A stretch of DNA of 64,000 nt, from positions 49,672 through 113,671 of the forward strand of contig NZ_QAGK01000012.1 of assembly GCF_003057885.1 (NCBI RefSeq), given 5' to 3'. Shown piece after piece: positions 6,405 through 30,217 of this stretch. Every line of letters starts with the position of its first letter. Within the stretch, counting starts at the first letter, position 1. The translations under genes and the position numbers were made by a program. Below the pieces are notes generated by a model. That model was not told the DNA's origin, searched no databases, and worked only from the letters and a program-made list of their open reading frames with translations. Source of the stretch: Oceaniglobus ichthyenteri (GTDB lineage: Bacteria; Pseudomonadota; Alphaproteobacteria; Rhodobacterales; Rhodobacteraceae).

Positions 6405-6433
6405 CCCCAGACAGTGTACCCCGCGCCATCACA

Positions 6434-6480
6434 CCCGGCGCAACGGCTTCCTGGCGCGTCGGGCTCATTTGAATGGAGCA
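6434..6480 (+). promoter_or_regulatory. SAM/SAH riboswitch controlling metK
   Basis: Stem P1 is CCCGGCG (6434-6440) paired with CGTCGGG (6457-6463, one G-U). The loop holds the conserved AACGGCTTCCTGGCG core. The pseudoknot pairs GCTTC (6446-6450) with GGAGC (6475-6479), which is also the metK Shine-Dalgarno. These are the hallmarks of the SAM/SAH class found before metK in Rhodobacterales. Ligand binding would hide the ribosome binding site and turn translation off. The core and pseudoknot are seen directly; the class assignment rests on known consensus. Confidence 0.93.
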
Positions 6481-22004: not shown

Positions 22005-23153
22005 TTATCTCTGTCGCCGGAGTCCGAGATAGGACAAGATCCATTTGCGCCCGATTTCCGCGATTGTGCCAAGAAACAGACCCAACAGCGGGTTGCCAAG
22101 GGCTGTTGCAACGGCCGCAACCGCAATCACCGGTCGGCAGGATGGTCTGGCATCAAACAGGCGACGGTTGGCGGCAAGTTCGACCGATGCGATCAACAAA
22201 AGCGCGCCCAGCGTGGCGGTGGGGATTGATGTCAGCGCGGCATGTCTGATCGGGTCGGGAAGAAGCGTCAGCACCAAAAGGCCCGCGCCCAACAGGATCG
22301 GTGCGCCGCCGGTTGTTGCGCCAAACCGGTGGTGCGCGGCCACCCCCCCGGCCCCGTGGCACATCGGCAGCGCCCCGAATGGCGCCAGGATCAGATTGGC
22401 CGCGCCCGATGTCAGGCAAAGCTTGCGTGGCGTGACCCGCGCGGCAGGGGCGCCGAAACAATCCCGCGCTACAAGGCTGGTCAGGAATACGGCGTTGGTC
22501 AGGGTCAGCGCCAGTTGCGGCAGCGCAAGATCGGCGATGGCCATGCGGAAATCTTCGATTGTGGGAATCGGCAGCGTCCAGCCGCTACCCTGTGATACAT
22601 TCAGTTGATGCACATCAGGCTGCGCAATCCCGACGCCAAGGATCACCCCGAACACGATTGTCGCCAGTGCCGCATGAAGCCCCATGCGCAGCGTGACAAC
22701 GGCAAACCCCAAAGACAGCGCGCCAATAAGCATCTGATCCTTCATAAGCCCAAGCGCGATCCAGCCCAGCGCCAGCCCAAGCCCAAGTTGCAGCCCTGAC
22801 AAAACCGATTGCGGCACAAGGCGTGCCAATCTGTCGATGATCCCGCTCGCCCCGAGAACTAAAAGCGTCACACCGATCAACATACCGCTGAGCGCAAGCG
22901 CGGTTGGCGTTACCTCGCTGACCAGGGCCACGGCGACAATGGCCTTCATCGGTTGCACCGGAATTGGCAGACGATAAATCAGACCTGTGGCGATGTAAAA
23001 AAGGCCAAAACCCAACAACACATGCTGCGCCGAAAGACCGACCAAGGCGATCGTGCCAAGGGTCAGGGGCAAAAGCGTTCCGATATCGCCAAGCGCGCCA
23101 TTCGCCTCGCGCAGATCGAACCGAAACCTGTTTTTCGCAGACTCACCCATCAT
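22005..23153 (-). CDS. MOT1-type molybdate/sulfate transporter
   Basis: The product is 382 residues with about ten membrane helices. Both diagnostic MOT1 motifs are present: PVQPMKAIVAVAL (about residues 65-77) and ALPMCHGAGGVAAHHRFGA (about 259-277). This SulP-related family was characterised as high-affinity molybdate uptake in plants and algae; bacterial copies are annotated as putative sulfate/molybdate transporters. Neighbouring Mop-like and tup genes favour molybdate or tungstate. It is divergent from the Mop-like gene. Two adjacent ATG codons (23153, 23150) could start it, and neither has a strong ribosome binding site. Confidence 0.88.
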   Translation of the reverse strand: MMGESAKNRFRFDLREANGALGDIGTLLPLTLGTIALVGLSAQHVLLGFGLFYIATGLIYRLPIPVQPMKAIVAVALVSEVTPTALALSGMLIGVTLLVLGASGIIDRLARLVPQSVLSGLQLGLGLALGWIALGLMKDQMLIGALSLGFAVVTLRMGLHAALATIVFGVILGVGIAQPDVHQLNVSQGSGWTLPIPTIEDFRMAIADLALPQLALTLTNAVFLTSLVARDCFGAPAARVTPRKLCLTSGAANLILAPFGALPMCHGAGGVAAHHRFGATTGGAPILLGAGLLVLTLLPDPIRHAALTSIPTATLGALLLIASVELAANRRLFDARPSCRPVIAVAAVATALGNPLLGLFLGTIAEIGRKWILSYLGLRRQR

Positions 23154-23261
23154 GTTTCACCCGACAGCGCCGCCCCGGTCGGTTTCCAGATCGACAAGGT
23201 TGAAATCGGCCAGACGCAGCATACTGTATAACAGAACAGAAACCAGCAGGAGTGGCCGACC

Positions 23262-23471
23262 ATGAAACTGAGCGCGCGCAATACATTGAGCGGAACCGTA
23301 AAGGCAATCGACAAGGGTACCGTCAATTCGACCGTACAGATTGACCTGGGCGGTGGGGCCGTGGTGACGGCCATGATCACCAATGCGTCGGTTGATGATC
23401 TGGGGCTTGAAGTGGGCAAGGCGGCTCATGCGATTATAAAGGCGTCGGATGTGATTGTCGGCGTCGATTGA
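23262..23471 (+). CDS. Mop-like TOBE-domain molybdate-binding protein
   Basis: The product is 69 residues and consists of one TOBE/Mop domain (MKLSARNTLSGTVKAIDKG at the start, ITNASVDDLGLEVGKAAHAIIKASDVIV at the end), the size of a molbindin. Molbindins bind molybdate or tungstate as oligomers in the cytosol and buffer the anion. CAGGAG precedes the ATG. Its last 46 bp overlap the convergent ABC ATPase gene on the other strand. Confidence 0.9.
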   Translation: MKLSARNTLSGTVKAIDKGTVNSTVQIDLGGGAVVTAMITNASVDDLGLEVGKAAHAIIKASDVIVGVD

Positions 23472-24250
23472 ACATTCAGCGACGGCAGGCACACCTTGCG
23501 GCCCGATGACGTGGTTTCGATTGAAACAGGAATGCCGTACACCTTGCTTAGGTTGGCATCTGTCAAAACCGTATGCGCCGCGCCTTGCGCCTGCCTGTTG
23601 CCGTCTTTCATCAGCAAAACCTGCGCGTTCAGCGCGAAAGCCTGATCCGGGTCATGGGTTGACAGGATAATGCCACAGCCTTGCGCCGCACCATCGCGGG
23701 CAAGGGTGGAAATCTGCGCCAACACCTGTGCCTGATTGCCAAAATCAAGGCTGGCGGTTGGTTCATCCATAACGATCAGATGCGCCTCTTGCGCCAAGGC
23801 CCGCGCGATCAGCACCAACTGCCGCTGACCACCCGACAGGCGCGAATAATCGCGCTGGGCCAAATGCGCTATGCCCAACCTGTCCATGGCGTTTTGCGCG
23901 ATCATGCGGTCATCGCGCCCCGGCTGGCCAAACAAACCCAGCCGGGCGGTGCGCCCCATGAGAACAACCTCAAGCGCTTCAAACGGGAAGGGCGGGGCAT
24001 GGGCCTGTGGCACATAGGCCACCTGCCGCGCGATATCCGCGCGAGTCTGTGCCGTGATCGGCTTGCCACCCAGAAACACCGTTCCTGACAGCGCCGGTAG
24101 CAGCCCCAGAACCGTGCGAAACAGCGTGGTTTTGCCACAGCCATTTGGCCCGAGCAGGCACAGAATTTCACCGCGCCCCACGCTAAGATCCAAACCCGAC
24201 CCGATCCGCGTTTTGCCATACCCGATGGAAAGACCCTGCGCCGTCAGCAT
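23426..24250 (-). CDS. ABC importer ATPase of the FecE/BtuD type
   Basis: The product is 274 residues. It has Walker A GPNGCGKTTL (about residue 35), signature LSGGQRQLVLIARAL and Walker B LIVMDEPTASLD. It powers import with the FecCD-type permease whose stop codon shares one base with this start (TGATG). This subfamily usually handles iron chelates or cobalamin, but MolBCA-type relatives take molybdate/tungstate. Its location argues for the latter. The 3' end runs 46 bp into the Mop-like gene on the opposite strand. Confidence 0.88.
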   Translation of the reverse strand: MLTAQGLSIGYGKTRIGSGLDLSVGRGEILCLLGPNGCGKTTLFRTVLGLLPALSGTVFLGGKPITAQTRADIARQVAYVPQAHAPPFPFEALEVVLMGRTARLGLFGQPGRDDRMIAQNAMDRLGIAHLAQRDYSRLSGGQRQLVLIARALAQEAHLIVMDEPTASLDFGNQAQVLAQISTLARDGAAQGCGIILSTHDPDQAFALNAQVLLMKDGNRQAQGAAHTVLTDANLSKVYGIPVSIETTSSGRKVCLPSLNVQSTPTITSDAFIIA

Positions 24251-25272
24251 CACGACCAACCGCGTCTGCCGCGCGCCAGCAGCCAGACGAAAAACGGCGC
24301 ACCGATCACGGCGGTCAGGATGCCCAATGGCACCTCGACCTGCGCCAGGGTTCGCGCCAGGGTATCAACGATCAAAAGATAGCCCGCGCCGATCAGCGCC
24401 GATGTGGGCAACAACCGCGCAAAACCGGGGCCAACCAGCATCCGCGCGATATGCGGAATAACCAACCCGACCCAGCCCACAACCCCCGCCACAGCCGTGA
24501 CACTGGCAGTGATCAGGGTGGCGGCGACGATCACCAGAAACCGTGTGCGCGCCACCTCAACCCCCAAGGCGCGCGCCTCTTCATCGCCCAGGCTCAGAAC
24601 ATTGATTCGCCAGCGCAGCAGGATCAGCGGCACCAGCCCGATCAACACCATCGGCAGAGCGGGCAGGATATCATGGATCGTTGTGGCAGCCAATGACCCC
24701 AACAGCCAAAATGTGATGGCGGGCAATTGATCGTAAGGGTCGGCCATTACCTTGAGCAGCGATGTCGCCGCCCCGGCCAGCGCGCCGATCACGACGCCAA
24801 CCAGGACCAGTGTGAGGGTCCGATCCGTGTTTTGCACCAATGACGCCACCAGCATCACAAACCCCACCGCCACCATGCCGCCGATGAATGCCGAAACCTG
24901 AATCGCCGCCACCGGCAATGACAGGAAAATGCCCGCCACCGCGCCCAGGCCCGCACCAGCCGAAACGCCCAGAATATCAGGTGATACCAATGGGTTGCGA
25001 AACAACGCCTGATAGGTCGCGCCAGCCGCGGCCAGGGCGGCCCCAACCAAAAGCGCCGCCGCCACACGGGGCAGGCGGATGTTCCACACCACGATTGCCG
25101 CCTGTTGATCGCCCCGTCCGATCAGCGCCGCCACTGTCTGGCCCGGCGTCAGGCCGAATGGCCCGATCATCACCGCACCAAAGGCCAGCGCAACAAGACA
25201 CAGCGCCAGTCCGCCAGTCAGCGTCAGAGCGGGCCTTTGCAGGGCTACATCGGCGGTTTTCCCTGCGCCCAT
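24250..25272 (-). CDS. ABC importer permease of the FecCD/BtuC type
   Basis: The product is 340 residues with about ten membrane helices. Motifs include RLPRVAAALLVGAALAAAGATYQALFRNPLVSPDILGVSAGAG, diagnostic of FecCD permeases, and a coupling region near GLVIPHIARMLVGP. Its 5' end overlaps the binding-protein gene by 28 bp. Together with the ATPase it forms a type II importer. The substrate is inferred from context as an oxyanion such as molybdate or tungstate; a metallophore is the alternative. Confidence 0.9.
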   Translation of the reverse strand: MGAGKTADVALQRPALTLTGGLALCLVALAFGAVMIGPFGLTPGQTVAALIGRGDQQAAIVVWNIRLPRVAAALLVGAALAAAGATYQALFRNPLVSPDILGVSAGAGLGAVAGIFLSLPVAAIQVSAFIGGMVAVGFVMLVASLVQNTDRTLTLVLVGVVIGALAGAATSLLKVMADPYDQLPAITFWLLGSLAATTIHDILPALPMVLIGLVPLILLRWRINVLSLGDEEARALGVEVARTRFLVIVAATLITASVTAVAGVVGWVGLVIPHIARMLVGPGFARLLPTSALIGAGYLLIVDTLARTLAQVEVPLGILTAVIGAPFFVWLLARGRRGWS

Positions 25273-26273
25273 TCAAGGAGCCTCCCCAATTCCGCATCGC
25301 TCAGATCGACATGATAATATTGCTTGTAAAACGCGCGGGTGTCTTCGCGCAGATCGCCCTCCCATGTTTCGGGGTACAGCAAACCTGCCATCCAGATCAG
25401 CCCGATCATCCGGTTAAGGGCCGGGGGCCGGTCGATCCAGCCAAAGGGCGCCATCGGGGCCAGATAAACGCGCCCGTCGCGCACCGCGTCGATGCCTTGC
25501 CACAACGGATCGTCAAACACCCTGCCATAAAAGTTCGTATCCCACGTGACAATCGTGTCAGGATTCGCCGCGATCACCTGTTCCATTGACGATTGCACAA
25601 GGCCGCGCGTCGCCCCACCATCATCGGCCACATTTCGCCCGCCTGCGCGTTCGATGATTTCGGTGTTGATTGATCCTTTCATGCCCGTTTCCAACCCATC
25701 GGCCCCACGGGCCAGATAAACGCGGGGGCGGGCCTCTTCGGGGATATCGGCCAGCATTGCATCCAGACGCGCAAAGGTTTGTTCCACATCTGCCGCCAGG
25801 GCTGTGCCGCGGTCGGGCACGCCCAGCGCGTCACCGACAATGCGCAAGGCGTCGGCGGTGTTTTCAAACCGCCCGTCGATCAACAGATAGGGAATGCCGG
25901 TCTGTTCCTGCACGCGGTTGGCCAGATCGATATAGGTGTCGCGCACCGATCCGAAATCGATGATCAGATCAGGATTGACCTGCAACACCCGTTCCAAATT
26001 CGCCTCACCGCCACGCCCGGTGATGCGTCCGGTTTCTGGCAGACCCACGAACGGTTCGGCGATATACGCCTCTTCTTCGGGGCGCAGGGCACGGGGCCAT
26101 CCGGTCAGCACTTCGGGTTTCATGATATAGACAAGGGCGCCCGCCGGAGGGCCAGCGGCAAATACCGTGTTCACCTGTTCGGGGATTTCAACCTTGCGCC
26201 CGGCGCTGTCAACGATGGTGCGCGCCTGAACCGGCGCGGCAAGCAGGGCAAGGGCAATCAACAAAAAACGCAT
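25245..26273 (-). CDS. ABC importer substrate-binding protein (TroA/BtuF-like fold)
   Basis: The product is 342 residues with a Sec signal peptide (MRFLLIALALLAAPVQA). The mature protein has the class III binding-protein pattern: a DSAGRKVEIPEQVNTVFAAG start, a NLERVLQVNPDLIIDFG segment and a long linking helix. I chose the ATG at 26273 because it opens the signal peptide and has GAGGG upstream; longer versions run into the TrmO-like gene. The arrangement resembles molybdate-binding MolA systems, but the ligand cannot be read directly. Confidence 0.87.
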   Translation of the reverse strand: MRFLLIALALLAAPVQARTIVDSAGRKVEIPEQVNTVFAAGPPAGALVYIMKPEVLTGWPRALRPEEEAYIAEPFVGLPETGRITGRGGEANLERVLQVNPDLIIDFGSVRDTYIDLANRVQEQTGIPYLLIDGRFENTADALRIVGDALGVPDRGTALAADVEQTFARLDAMLADIPEEARPRVYLARGADGLETGMKGSINTEIIERAGGRNVADDGGATRGLVQSSMEQVIAANPDTIVTWDTNFYGRVFDDPLWQGIDAVRDGRVYLAPMAPFGWIDRPPALNRMIGLIWMAGLLYPETWEGDLREDTRAFYKQYYHVDLSDAELGRLLEWAQGKPPM

Positions 26274-26274
26274 T

Positions 26275-26784
26275 TCAATCCCTCTTTGCCTGTGGGCCTG
26301 TATCCGAGTCGCCGGGTTTTGCCGGCGCTTGCGGGCTGAACACACAGCGGTCAGGCTTGATATCGATCAGCGGCGTACCATCAAGGCAATCAAGCCCCCG
26401 CACATGCAGCGTACCCTTTTCAATGCGCAGCAGTTTGACGACAGATGTGCCAATCGGATTGGGCCGCACGGGCGAGCGCAGCGCGAAAGTGCCCACCGTC
26501 TGCCCATTGCTTTTCGGGCTTTGCCGGATCAGATCACGGCGGCTTTTGTCCAGCCAATACAACACTTCGATCGTGTCAAACGCTTCGAGCCCATCCAGCG
26601 CGTCGGGCCAGACGGGATCAAGAACCAATTGACAGTCCGGCCCGTCAAGCCGCCCTTGGCGTGGGCAATCCTTGCGATCGCGCCAAGGGGTGTGGATGGT
26701 GCCGATAAAGCGCAATGTCGCATCCGCCGCAGGGGCAAGCGTGACTGCCTGCTCATTGGGGCGCAGTTCCTCTGTCTGGCTCAT
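26275..26784 (-). CDS. TrmO-like (TsaA/YaeB, UPF0066) SAM-binding protein
   Basis: The product is 169 residues. The UPF0066 signature RSPVRPNPIGTSVVKLL (about residues 104-120) and CLDGTPLIDIKPD (about 132-144) are intact. The founding enzyme TrmO uses SAM to N6-methylate t6A37 in threonine tRNAs. Here the gene starts a four-gene operon with a metal-type ABC importer and ends 1 bp before the binding-protein gene. That suggests either a role specific to this locus or simple co-transcription. Confidence 0.85.
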   Translation of the reverse strand: MSQTEELRPNEQAVTLAPAADATLRFIGTIHTPWRDRKDCPRQGRLDGPDCQLVLDPVWPDALDGLEAFDTIEVLYWLDKSRRDLIRQSPKSNGQTVGTFALRSPVRPNPIGTSVVKLLRIEKGTLHVRGLDCLDGTPLIDIKPDRCVFSPQAPAKPGDSDTGPQAKRD

Positions 26785-26826
26785 GGGGATCTCCGGAAAT
26801 TATGCAGTCTTTATTTCATGGATTTT

Positions 26827-26840
26827 TGGCCAATTGGCCA
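26827..26840. promoter_or_regulatory. Perfect palindrome in the trmO/tupB divergent spacer
   Basis: TGGCCAATTGGCCA is a perfect 14-base palindrome 43 bp upstream of the TrmO-like start codon. It sits in the only intergenic spacer between the two divergent transporter operons and is a good candidate binding site for the locus regulator. Function is inferred from symmetry and position. Confidence 0.5.
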
Positions 26841-26889
26841 TGGTTCATCGGAACATGCCTTTAATTTCACCCAAAGGCTAGGCTTGAAC

Positions 26890-26939
26890 TTTGGATGCCA
26901 AACTGCATATCCTCCGACATGTGGGAATTTTTGCATATC
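26890..26939. promoter_or_regulatory. Second palindrome and direct repeats upstream of tupB
   Basis: TTTGGATGCCAAA (26890-26902) is symmetrical around its central ATG and shares the TTGG/CCAA half-sites of the 14-base palindrome nearby. The octamer TGCATATC occurs at 26904-26911 and again at 26932-26939, just upstream of the tupB coding region. These could form a regulator-binding array. Confidence 0.4.
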
Positions 26940-26949
26940 GGGGATCGCT

Positions 26950-27657
26950 CTGCAAAGCATAACTGACGCCTTGGGACTTGCTTTTGCGCTGGTATTGTCC
27001 GGTGACGGCGATCTTTTAGAGATCGTCGCGCTGTCGTTGCGGGTCAGCCTGACGGCAACGGTGATCGCCTGCCTGATCGGGTTGCCGGTTGGGGCGCTTG
27101 TTGCCATTGGCCGGTTTCGCGGGCGCAATGCGGTTTTGATCGTGATGAATGCGCTGATGGGGCTGCCCCCGGTTGTGGTCGGGCTGCTGGTTTATCTGCA
27201 TCTGTCGCGCTCTGGCCCGCTTGGGTTTCTTGGGCTGCTTTATACGCCAAGCGCGATGATCATCGCGCAAACGATCCTGATCGCGCCCATTGTCGCGGCC
27301 CTGTCGCGCCAGGTTCTTGAAGATTTGCACGCCGAATATGCCGAACAGTTCCGCTCGCTTTGTCTGACGCGGTTGCAGACGATACAGGCGTTATTGTGGG
27401 ATGCGCGATATTCACTTTTGACCGTTGGGTTGGCCGGATTTGGCCGCGCCATTGCCGAAGTCGGGGCGGTGATCATCGTCGGGGGCAATATCGACCATCT
27501 GACGCGGGTGATGACCACGGCCATCGCGCTGGAAACCTCAAAGGGGGATCTCGCGTTGGCGCTGGCGCTGGGCATCATCCTGTTGATCATCGCCCTTGGG
27601 GTAAACGCGGCGGTGCAATCGGTGCGGATGACGGCGGCCAGGCAGGCCTATGTCTGA
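26950..27657 (+). CDS. tupB: Tungstate ABC transporter permease TupB
   Basis: The product is about 235 residues with about five membrane helices. It has a ModB/TupB-type core (LSLRVSLTATVIACLIGLPVGALVAI and the EAA-like loop AEYAEQFRSLCLTRLQTIQALLWDARYSL). The start is uncertain: no ATG or GTG lies in frame near the expected N-terminus. The CTG at 26950, with GGGG six bases upstream, or the TTG at 26971 are the options. It overlaps tupC by 8 bp. Confidence 0.85.
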   Translation: MQSITDALGLAFALVLSGDGDLLEIVALSLRVSLTATVIACLIGLPVGALVAIGRFRGRNAVLIVMNALMGLPPVVVGLLVYLHLSRSGPLGFLGLLYTPSAMIIAQTILIAPIVAALSRQVLEDLHAEYAEQFRSLCLTRLQTIQALLWDARYSLLTVGLAGFGRAIAEVGAVIIVGGNIDHLTRVMTTAIALETSKGDLALALALGIILLIIALGVNAAVQSVRMTAARQAYV

Positions 27658-28405
27658 CGCGGCCGCCCTGACCCCCCTGCACATCCGGGAAAGCGCGCAA
27701 AATAGCCCGCTCATGCCGCTGGTCGTGCGCGATTTGACGCTGCGCTTTGGGGAAACGACCGTGCTTGATGGCCTGTCTCTCGATCTTGATACACGGGGCT
27801 GTACCATGGTCATGGGCGCCAACGGGTCGGGGAAAAGCCTGTTGTTAAAGCTTTTGCATGGGTTGATTCACCCAAGCGCGGGCCAGATCCATTGGGGCAG
27901 CCAAACGCCAACCGCAGTGACCAGACGACAGGCGTTGGTGTTTCAAAAGCCTGTCCTGCTGCGCCGGTCGGTGGCTGCGAATATCGATTTCGTGCTGAAA
28001 GTACGGGGCAAGGACAGATCGCGGCGCGCGGCCCTTTTGGAACATGTCGGCCTGTCGCACAAGGCCGATCAACCCGCACGCCTGCTGTCGGGCGGCGAGG
28101 CGCAGCGACTGGCGCTTGCCCGCGCATTGGCCACCGACCCCGAGGTTTTGTTTCTGGACGAACCCACGGCCAGCCTTGATCCGGCGTCGGTTCTGGCGAT
28201 TGAGGGCATCGTGAACGGCGCGCGCAGTCGGGGTGTCCGGATCATTTTTGTCACCCATGATGTCGGGCAGGCCCGGCGCATCGCCGATGACATCGTGTTC
28301 CTGCACCGTGGCCGCATCGCCGAACACAGCCCCGTGGCTGACTTTTTCCCCACACCGCAAAGCAGCGCGGCCCGGGACTATCTGAGCGGCAGAATTGTCG
28401 TCTGA
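27650..28405 (+). CDS. tupC: Tungstate ABC transporter ATPase TupC
   Basis: The product is 251 residues. Walker A reads MGANGSGKSLLLK (about residue 55), the signature LSGGEAQRLALARAL and Walker B VLFLDEPTASLDPAS. There is no C-terminal TOBE domain, as expected for TupC rather than ModC. It begins within tupB (8-bp overlap) and is followed 31 bp later by tupA. Confidence 0.9.
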   Translation: MSDAAALTPLHIRESAQNSPLMPLVVRDLTLRFGETTVLDGLSLDLDTRGCTMVMGANGSGKSLLLKLLHGLIHPSAGQIHWGSQTPTAVTRRQALVFQKPVLLRRSVAANIDFVLKVRGKDRSRRAALLEHVGLSHKADQPARLLSGGEAQRLALARALATDPEVLFLDEPTASLDPASVLAIEGIVNGARSRGVRIIFVTHDVGQARRIADDIVFLHRGRIAEHSPVADFFPTPQSSAARDYLSGRIVV

Positions 28406-28436
28406 CATACCAATACTGAATGAAGGAGCTATTGAA

Positions 28437-29255
28437 ATGCTGAGAAGAACATTTGGGGCAACCACCGTCGCCCTGCTTTTGACAGGCGCTGCCTGGGCGC
28501 AGGATCAATCAATCATCGTGCAATCCACCACCTCGACGGCAAACTCGGGGCTGTATGATTATCTTTTGCCGATCTTTCAGGACAAGACCGGCATTCAGGT
28601 GAATGTGGTCGCGGTGGGCACCGGGCAGGCGATCAAGAACGCCGAAAATTGCGATGGCGATGTGCTGCTTGTGCATGCCAAACCGTCCGAGGAAAAATTC
28701 CTTGCCGCGGGGTTTGGAACCGCGCGTACCGATCTGATGTATAACGATTTTGTCATTGTTGGTCCGGGGTCTGACCCGGCGGGCGTTGGCGGGATGACCG
28801 ATGTTCAGGGCGCGCTGACACAGATTGCCGAAAAAGGCGCGCTGTTTGCGTCGCGCGGCGATGACAGTGGCACGCATAAGAAAGAAGTGTCGCTGTGGGC
28901 GGACAGCGGCGTTGATCCGACGGCGGCCAGCGGTGATTGGTATCGTGAAACCGGTTCGGGCATGGGTGCCACATTGAATGCGGGCATCGGCATGGGTGCG
29001 TATGTGATGACCGATCGCGCAACCTGGATCAGCTTTGGCAACAAACAGGATTATGCCATTCAGGTTGAAGGTGACGAGGATATGTTCAACCAATATGGCG
29101 TGATCCCGGTGAACCCGGAAAAATGCCCGTCGGTCAACGCCGAGGCAGCGCAGACATTTGCCGACTGGCTTGTGTCGGGCGAAGGGCAGGATGCGATTGC
29201 GGGCTACAAGGTGGCCGATCAGCAGTTGTTCTTTCCAAACGCACCCACCAACTGA
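28437..29255 (+). CDS. tupA: Tungstate-binding protein TupA
   Basis: The product is 272 residues with a signal peptide ending TGAAWAQ. The mature protein starts with IIVQSTTSTANSGLYDYLLP, which contains the TTST oxyanion-binding motif diagnostic of TupA rather than ModA, and continues with VGTGQAIKNAENCDGDVLLVHA. AAGGAG lies ahead of the ATG. Gene order is tupB-tupC-tupA instead of the common tupA-first order. A strong hairpin follows. Confidence 0.93.
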   Translation: MLRRTFGATTVALLLTGAAWAQDQSIIVQSTTSTANSGLYDYLLPIFQDKTGIQVNVVAVGTGQAIKNAENCDGDVLLVHAKPSEEKFLAAGFGTARTDLMYNDFVIVGPGSDPAGVGGMTDVQGALTQIAEKGALFASRGDDSGTHKKEVSLWADSGVDPTAASGDWYRETGSGMGATLNAGIGMGAYVMTDRATWISFGNKQDYAIQVEGDEDMFNQYGVIPVNPEKCPSVNAEAAQTFADWLVSGEGQDAIAGYKVADQQLFFPNAPTN

Positions 29256-29261
29256 TAGTCT

Positions 29262-29292
29262 TGTCGGGGCGGCACGGATCGCCGCCCCGACA
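29262..29292 (+). terminator. Strong hairpin after tupA
   Basis: A perfect 12-bp stem (TGTCGGGGCGGC at 29262-29273, GCCGCCCCGACA at 29281-29292) has a 7-base loop. Only CTTT follows, so termination may be partial and the regulator gene downstream could be read through. Confidence 0.7.
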
Positions 29293-29302
29293 CTTTGAAC
29301 GG

Positions 29303-30217
29303 ATGATGATGACCGACCCGGCCTTTCCCGATCATGAATACCTGACGGTCAAGGAACTGGCGGAATTGTTGCGCCTGAAAGAACGCAAGATCTATGATCT
29401 GGCGGCCTCTGGCGCGGTGCCATGCTCAAGGGCGACAGGAAAGCTTCTTTTTCCTGCGGCGGACATCAGAAGTTGGATCGCGCAGGCGAAATCGGGGGGA
29501 GGCACAGCGCCCGAACCCCGGCCTGCAGACCGCCCGCCAATCGTGCTGGGCAGTCATGATCCCCTCTTGGATTGGGCGATCCGGCAATCGCGTTGCGGTC
29601 TGGCCAGCTATTTCGATGGATCGCTTGATGGGCTTGACCGGTTTGTTCGGGGCGAAGGGGTGGCGGCGGGATTGCATGTTCATGATGCGGCGTCGGCGCG
29701 TTGGAACGTGCCGGTTGTGTCGCACCGCGCGGCCGGTCAGAACGCTGTGTTGATCTCGTTTGCGACCCGGCGACGTGGCTTGGTGTTTCGGCCCGGTGAG
29801 GCAAGACCGGCACGCCTGTCGGATCTGGCCGGTCGGCGCATCGTTCCCCGGCAGGCAGAATCCGGAACAGAAACCTTGTTTCGGGAATTGGCCGCAAAAG
29901 AGGGGCTGGAATTGGCTGCTCTGGACTTTGCCGAGGTGGCGCGCACCGAAGACGCCGCCGTTGAGGCCGTTCGGCGCGGCGATGGCGATGCCGCCTTTGG
30001 CCTTGAGGCGGTGGCGCGCGGTTATGGGTTGGAATTTCTACCCATCGTCGAAGAACAATTTGCGCTTCTTTTTGATCGAAAAGCCTGGTTTGACACACCC
30101 GTTCAGCGCCTGATGGAATTCTGCGCAACAGCGCAATTCGCCAGCCGGGCGGCGGCCTATGGCGGCTATGGTATCGAACATTTCGGACAGGTGATCTGGA
30201 ACGCAAGCGCCGGGTGA
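29303..30217 (+). CDS. HTH regulator with a periplasmic-binding-protein-like domain
   Basis: The product is 304 residues. An excisionase/MerR-like helix-turn-helix occupies residues about 12-62 (YLTVKELAELLRLKERKIYDLAASGAV). It is fused to a cytosolic binding-protein-like domain (about 80-290) with DPLLDWAIRQSRCGLASYFDGSLDGL and the later QAESGTETLFRELA. Proteins with this architecture are found beside molybdate and tungstate transporters and are presumed oxyanion sensors. It is the likely regulator of the divergent operons at 26785-26949. No strong ribosome binding site precedes the triple ATG at 29303. Confidence 0.85.
   Translation: MMMTDPAFPDHEYLTVKELAELLRLKERKIYDLAASGAVPCSRATGKLLFPAADIRSWIAQAKSGGGTAPEPRPADRPPIVLGSHDPLLDWAIRQSRCGLASYFDGSLDGLDRFVRGEGVAAGLHVHDAASARWNVPVVSHRAAGQNAVLISFATRRRGLVFRPGEARPARLSDLAGRRIVPRQAESGTETLFRELAAKEGLELAALDFAEVARTEDAAVEAVRRGDGDAAFGLEAVARGYGLEFLPIVEEQFALLFDRKAWFDTPVQRLMEFCATAQFASRAAAYGGYGIEHFGQVIWNASAG

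Follow-up and report, generated by a model that had tools for sequence, protein, structure and literature searches.

A recurrent gene cluster in Oceaniglobus ichthyenteri brings a FecCD-type importer and a short TrmO-like protein together with molybdate and tungstate genes

The 64,000-nucleotide stretch of Oceaniglobus ichthyenteri DNA analysed here (the window; contig NZ_QAGK01000012.1) carries at positions 22005-30217 a compact island of transport genes. It codes for a MOT1-family permease, the molbindin Mop, a FecCD-type ATP-binding cassette (ABC) importer with its own binding protein, a short protein related to TrmO, the tungstate transport proteins TupB, TupC and TupA, and a regulator combining HTH_17 and PBP_like domains (Table 1). 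An initial annotation made from the letters had listed these genes, and profile matches and coordinates place every one of them within the island; the PVQPMKA and PMCHGAGG motifs of the MOT1 translation, the TTST motif of TupA and the Mop domain are present as it described. Gene neighbourhoods of this kind recur in other genomes, and we consider it rather probable that the recurrent cluster is one regulated unit for uptake and buffering of tungstate and molybdate, whose FecCD-type importer is predicted to carry these anions and not iron.

The Peripla_BP_2 binding protein, the FecCD permease and the ABC ATPase are coded by one gene string on the minus strand (26273-23426) with the arrangement of MolABC, a class III molybdate/tungstate importer, and the TrmO-like gene heads this string. 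Mop belongs to the type of ~70 amino acids in which a single TOBE domain spans most of the polypeptide. No TOBE match was found in either ATPase of the locus, so that Mop is the sole TOBE protein there. The Mop gene and the FecE-type ATPase gene are convergent and their tails overlap by 46 bp (23426-23471). An overlap of identical length is seen in the window and in the relatives Pelagivirga sediminicola (locus L153) and Rhodobacteraceae F11138 (locus L156). The MOT1 protein matched no solved structure by sequence at E values up to 1.

TupA aligns to the solved TupA structure 5my5 (9.7e-73) and retains R118, T124 and D170, the anion-binding residues of TupA according to the part of the report available (PMC5517513). 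The three Tup proteins score under the cut-offs of the NCBIfam Tup equivalog models, and for this reason they are named from their residues and gene order. Compared to the TupABC system of Desulfovibrio alaskensis, as far as it is covered by the same partial source (PMC5517513), the TTST-type motif and the three residues of TupA are common to both, while the window proteins differ by their position under the NCBIfam cut-offs, by a TupC devoid of TOBE domain and by genes divergent from the trmO-molABC string.

Table 1. Genes and promoter motif copies of the island (positions in the window; bits are profile scores)
Feature	Position	Strand	Support
MOT1-family permease, predicted molybdate transporter	22005..23153	-	PF16983 151.6 bits (cut-off 30), 2 stretches
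Mop molbindin, 69 amino acids	23262..23471	+	TIGR00638 81 bits (cut-off 55); PF03459 63 bits, residues 4-66
FecE/MolC-type ATPase	23426..24250	-	PF00005 107 bits
FecCD/MolB-type permease	24250..25272	-	PF01032 307 bits
MolA-related periplasmic binding protein, predicted molybdate/tungstate ligand	25245..26273	-	PF01497 71 bits
Short TrmO-like S-adenosylmethionine-binding protein, 169 amino acids	26275..26784	-	PF01980 105 bits; TIGR00104 120 bits (cut-off 93)
Exact copy of GGAAATTWTGCA	26795..26806	+	precedes the TrmO-like start by ~10 bp
Second motif copy, 1 mismatch	26924..26935	+	just upstream of tupB
TupB permease	~26950..27657	+	NF041773 173 bits, under cut-off 320
TupC ATPase	27650..28405	+	PF00005 104 bits; NCBIfam Tup model 126 bits, under cut-off 400
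TupA tungstate-binding protein	28428..29255	+	NF041772 226 bits, under cut-off 400; TTST motif
HTH_17 + PBP_like regulator, TaoR-like architecture	~29303..30217	+	PF12727 149 bits; PF12728 44 bits

Two gene starts are approximate. The regulator is given as called by codon scoring (29303), the longest open reading frame beginning at 29123, and tupB has no usual start codon at the position where its relatives begin (CTG 26950), the next candidate being TTG 26971. A ModA gene lies elsewhere in the genome, beside genes read as ModB- and ModC-like. The genome gave no PF02730 match when a tungsten aldehyde oxidoreductase was sought, so that its demand for tungsten is not explained. In a scan of the window with Rfam at gathering scores the only match was an S-adenosylmethionine (SAM)/S-adenosylhomocysteine riboswitch at 6432-6480 on the plus strand (53.7 bits, above the gathering score), ~16 kb from the locus, and no molybdenum cofactor riboswitch was found.

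Gene neighbourhoods were surveyed with a codon-scored gene caller, which misses Mop. When the TrmO-like protein was used to search the species-genome collection, a search that covers close relatives only, 15 named loci were obtained. The nearest counterpart is found in P. sediminicola (L153), where the regulator, TupA, TupC and TupB genes are divergent from trmO-modA-molA-molB-molC, which is followed by convergent Mop and MOT1 genes. This is the island of the window in the same order plus one gene, modA, between trmO and the FecCD operon. F11138 (L156) has the string trmO-modA-molABC-Mop-MOT1 with a weak integrase match upstream and no tup gene within the stretch examined. The extra ModA of L153 and L156 scores above the curated cut-off of NF002917 (365 and 361 bits; cut-off 264). 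Of 195 genomes sampled from the same order, own genome included, 141 have TupA, 53 a TrmO-like protein, 3 MOT1 and 6 a MolA-like binding protein, 5 of the last showing at least 47% identity; the full gene set is thus rare within the order. Both trmO and tupA are present in 37 of the genomes, and in 7 of these they lie within ~3 kb of each other (p ~2e-13 under random placement). Nine Marinobacter loci of the scan (L146-L152, L154, L155) carry TrmO-like proteins 78-84% identical to that of the window, although Marinobacter is a gammaproteobacterium, which suggests transfer between classes; each of these genes is downstream of an 835-amino-acid gene, coding for an acyl-CoA dehydrogenase in L146, the one scanned.

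The survey was extended to a class sample of 385 genomes; a MolA-like protein at E <= 1e-40 is present in 20 of them, own genome included. The 20 MolA-like places outside the own genome were fetched; two at 31-33% identity were excluded and 18 at 44% or more retained. At least one gene for TupA/B, a ModA-like protein, Mop, MOT1 or the regulator is present within ~10 kb in 11 of the 18 loci, compared to none of 18 displaced 19.5-kb stretches from the same contigs, in twelve of the same genomes (Fisher p 1.1e-4), and none of 30 neighbourhoods of distant TrmO genes (p 1.4e-6), which were previously known to be Tup-free. The string TupBCA-ModA-Mop-MolABC is collinear in L201, L202 and L203, which belong to three families. 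L199 has TupBCA-trmO-MolABC, and L190 combines MOT1, TupBCA, MolABC and the regulator without trmO. The trmO gene adjoins molABC in 13 loci, which represent at least four families. In locus L162 (4732-6341) genes for TupA and ModA binding proteins stand directly upstream of trmO-molABC with no annotated TupB/C or ModB/C, and in locus L053 (8546-9088) Mop-trmO-molABC is preceded, within a string of overlapping genes, by a gene for a DUF2478 protein.

Similar combinations are carried by plasmids, from which 19 regions were picked by hand and not at random (12 of 206 TrmO, 6 of 310 MolA and 1 of 8 MOT1 records). A plasmid of Rhizobium sp. B21/90 has MolABC-trmO-Mop, while one of Indioceanicola profundi has TupA-ModA-trmO-MolABC-Mop, TupB/C and ModB/C not being among its annotated genes. 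The pair trmO-MolABC is found on plasmids of Paroceanicella and Paracoccus aminovorans, a Shinella plasmid has MolAB next to genes for a molybdotransferase, Mop and ModA, and an Azospirillum plasmid has MolABC with ModA and no trmO. Since the grouping recurs in other genomes, the locus is more than a chance assembly.

The motif GGAAATTWTGCA was recognised in 23 tupB upstream regions. With up to one mismatch, 118 loci (2.15 Mb) contain it 33 times, and 21 of these sites fall within 28 tupB zones where 0.12 would be expected; 15 of these 28 promoter zones carry it, a count that is partly circular, as 23 of the 28 zones supplied the motif, and in which the copy nearest to tupB may overlap the start in relatives. 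Free of this circularity is the exact copy found 12 bp before trmO of trmO-modA-molABC in F11138, which was outside the discovery set. In the 3.9-Mb genome the single exact copy found precedes the TrmO-like gene, and 34 further copies have one mismatch, making 35 in total compared to 7 for the reversed control. Of 20 sites read, 2 are those of the locus, and no further molybdenum or tungsten gene was found at the other 18 (short protein starts). In locus L136 short genes at 89-1636, within 8 kb of tup, were interpreted as belonging to a formate dehydrogenase operon (chaperone-like, twin-arginine translocation-type), and an exact motif copy is present at 496, inside the first of them.

The domain pair of the regulator matches the architecture of TaoR, an HTH_17 plus PBP protein described as regulator of tungsten aldehyde oxidoreductase in the portion of the source available (PMC11980592). 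The title of Rajeev et al. 2019, as cited there, names tungstoenzymes and molybdate/tungstate transport. The window regulator has the two domains in common with this family, known here through PMC11980592 only in part, and may differ from it by the presence of GGAAATTWTGCA before tup and trmO and by the FecCD importer among its putative targets. From domain architecture and shared motif, the regulator may be the protein that binds GGAAATTWTGCA. The gene grouping is probably co-regulated in part of its range.

The initial annotation had joined the FecCD importer and the TrmO-like protein to the molybdenum and tungsten genes on gene position, a proposal that would suffer if the grouping were absent from relatives, and had added a possible link to tRNA modification. 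The first part holds: the neighbourhoods recur in L153, L156 and other genomes, and recurrent clustering together with the shared promoter motif associates both proteins with Tup, Mop and MOT1. The link between SAM and tRNA modification is not borne out. In E. coli the DPRxxY motif is needed for formation of N6-methyl-N6-threonylcarbamoyladenosine (m6t6A) and its mutation abolishes the modification, as stated in the part of the report consulted (PMC4132733), and the C-terminal domain with this motif is missing from the window protein, which leaves a tRNA role unsupported.

The TrmO-like protein retains all four SAM residues, Q43, R103, D132 and K143 (E. coli Q25, R92, D125 and K136). These residues are common to TrmO/YaeB of E. 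coli and to the short proteins RPA0152 (3okx; match at 7.4e-54) and AF0241 (2nv4). Among 22 TrmO copies linked to molybdenum or tungsten genes, R and K are conserved throughout, D in 21 copies and Q in 17, while DPRxxY is found in none. By this lack the window protein differs from E. coli TrmO and resembles archaeal homologues, which are short and lack the DPRxxY domain and for which the authors suggest that another target is possible (PMC4132733, in the part available); it also differs from E. coli TrmO by its pairing with molybdenum and tungsten genes. In a tree of 83 TrmO rows the 22 linked copies comprise 13 beside molABC, a further 6 beside tup, 2 beside the regulator only and 1 beside Mop only. 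Linkage requires 8 changes on this tree compared to 19.8 for shuffled labels, a difference to which near-copies contribute, and one well-supported branch of 27 rows has no linked member. The association of TrmO with molybdenum and tungsten genes is clustered yet not exclusive. Contexts from an IncC plasmid, Dongshaea, a haloarchaeon, a Ti plasmid and Phaeobacter were examined and set aside. For this enzyme we predict SAM-dependent methyl transfer to a target different from N6-threonylcarbamoyladenosine 37 (t6A37) of tRNA.

A profile search of the PDB with the binding protein gave 4pag (1e-70), 4ovk (1.5e-37), MolA HI1472 of Haemophilus influenzae (2.1e-30) and 4hn9 (3.7e-29). With a profile from 20 orthologues, MolA HI1472 (3psa; 109.0 bits) narrowly precedes the iron-labelled 4hn9 (104.9), and YiuA (91.5) and BtuF (50.9) are clearly behind; both 4pag and 4ovk, whose ligands are not named, outscore MolA HI1472. 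The ligands of H. influenzae MolA are molybdate and tungstate themselves, according to the part of the source available (PMC4031551). The structure of the window protein was modelled with a mean predicted local distance difference test score (pLDDT) of 88.9. Because the fold match does not favour MolA over iron-labelled or siderophore-binding proteins, the ligand is deduced from genomic company, and on this ground the FecCD importer is predicted to carry molybdate/tungstate instead of iron.

A working scheme can be proposed on these grounds. The TaoR-like regulator would bind the motif and sense tungstate/molybdate, and a shortage of these anions would lead to transcription of the divergent tupBCA and trmO-molABC strings. 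TupABC would serve as a tight tungstate route, the MolABC-like importer as a route of lower affinity and MOT1 as a third permease. Mop is proposed to hold the anions in the cytoplasm because no TOBE match was obtained for the two ATPases. For the TrmO-like enzyme we offer, tentatively, a further possibility: its short, tail-less branch might be a dedicated part of a widespread, misannotated FecCD-type molybdate/tungstate importer of Alphaproteobacteria, and might be co-regulated with tup via GGAAATTWTGCA, in which case SAM might be used on the imported ligand, on the importer or on anion-handling proteins.

Five observations weigh against a single uptake-and-buffering unit. Seven of the 18 MolA-like loci have no molybdenum or tungsten neighbour within ~10 kb. 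Comparison of folds places the binding protein nearer to the iron-labelled 4hn9 than to MolA, which is tied with YiuA. One family of TonB-dependent receptors adjoins trmO-molABC in 4 of the 12 such loci scanned (L167, the query; L053, 80%; L049, 67%; L206, 49%). TrmO presence does not track TupA presence (37 genomes with both, 38.3 expected), and the closer TrmO branch gives 20 of 24 against 17.4 expected (p 0.15). Finally, none of the five tupB zones outside the discovery set, all from other families, carries the motif.

The TrmO-like protein could be an ordinary tRNA m6t6A37 methyltransferase hitch-hiking in the cluster. It scores above the TIGR00104 cut-off, it is the sole TrmO_N protein found in the genome, its relatives occupy many other contexts (in L042, for instance, beside a gene read as TadA-like) and, as just mentioned, its presence does not track that of TupA. 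We nevertheless rate this as rather unlikely, given the lack of DPRxxY in every linked copy, with the effect of its mutation in E. coli, and the repeated pairing of TrmO-like genes with tup or molABC, with the motif upstream. Less probable again is that the FecCD importer, merely adjacent to molybdenum and tungsten genes, takes up cobalamin, iron chelates or some other metal complex. This reading agrees with the seven loci devoid of such neighbours, with the fold comparison, with the TonB-dependent receptors and with the annotated plasmid relatives, whose binding protein is named 'iron ABC transporter substrate-binding protein'. It accounts poorly for neighbours at 11 of 18 loci and at no control locus, for the collinear TupBCA-ModA-Mop-MolABC of three loci, for the position of trmO-modA-molABC behind the tup motif in F11138 and for the narrow first place of MolA by sequence profile; the 'iron' labels of the plasmid relatives are probably wrong. 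Very improbable, even though the TonB receptors beside trmO-molABC leave some room for chelated-metal uptake, is import of molybdenum or tungsten as complexes with a small chelator, with the TrmO-like enzyme methylating the ligand or a handling partner to release the metal: chelates are the usual cargo of FecCD importers, one TonB-receptor family recurs beside trmO-molABC and the enzyme keeps its SAM-binding residues without the tRNA domain, but none of these receptors was detected in the window and H. influenzae MolA binds the anions themselves.

With one regulated tungstate/molybdate unit as the preferred reading, the island is a new, larger variant of the modA-molABC cluster, with a TrmO-like partner. 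The known example is the secondary molybdenum cluster HI1469-HI1475 of H. influenzae, which comprises modA, molABC, modD, salX and cysU in the accounts available in part (PMC3928620, PMC4031551). Common to both are a FecCD-type MolABC in the company of ModA and further transport genes, with a MolA that binds molybdate/tungstate in H. influenzae. The window adds TupBCA, MOT1, Mop, the TrmO-like enzyme and the TaoR-like regulator, and its copy lacks the ModA that is present in L153 and L156. Among the top matches listed in literature searches, no title or abstract opening ties TrmO/YaeB/TsaA to molybdate or tungstate, and none of those listed for TonB with molybdate, MolABC, MOT1/Mop/Tup or tup regulators describes this cluster.

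When molybdenum use was surveyed in 2018, ModABC, WtpABC and TupABC of prokaryotes were counted, and 278 of 3683 molybdenum-using bacteria were left without a known transporter; neither MolABC nor MolBCA appears as a term in the text of the survey that was available (PMC6147048). The clusters described here point to a FecCD-type family, with the label 'iron' in the annotated plasmid records examined, as a further route of molybdenum and tungsten uptake in several alphaproteobacterial families, and supply a candidate operator for this importer in part of them. They also tie the importer to short SAM-binding TrmO-like proteins, for which the literature consulted, seen in part, names no proven target. 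If the TrmO-like enzyme is indeed a dedicated part of the system, this would give the TrmO enzyme class a function outside tRNA.

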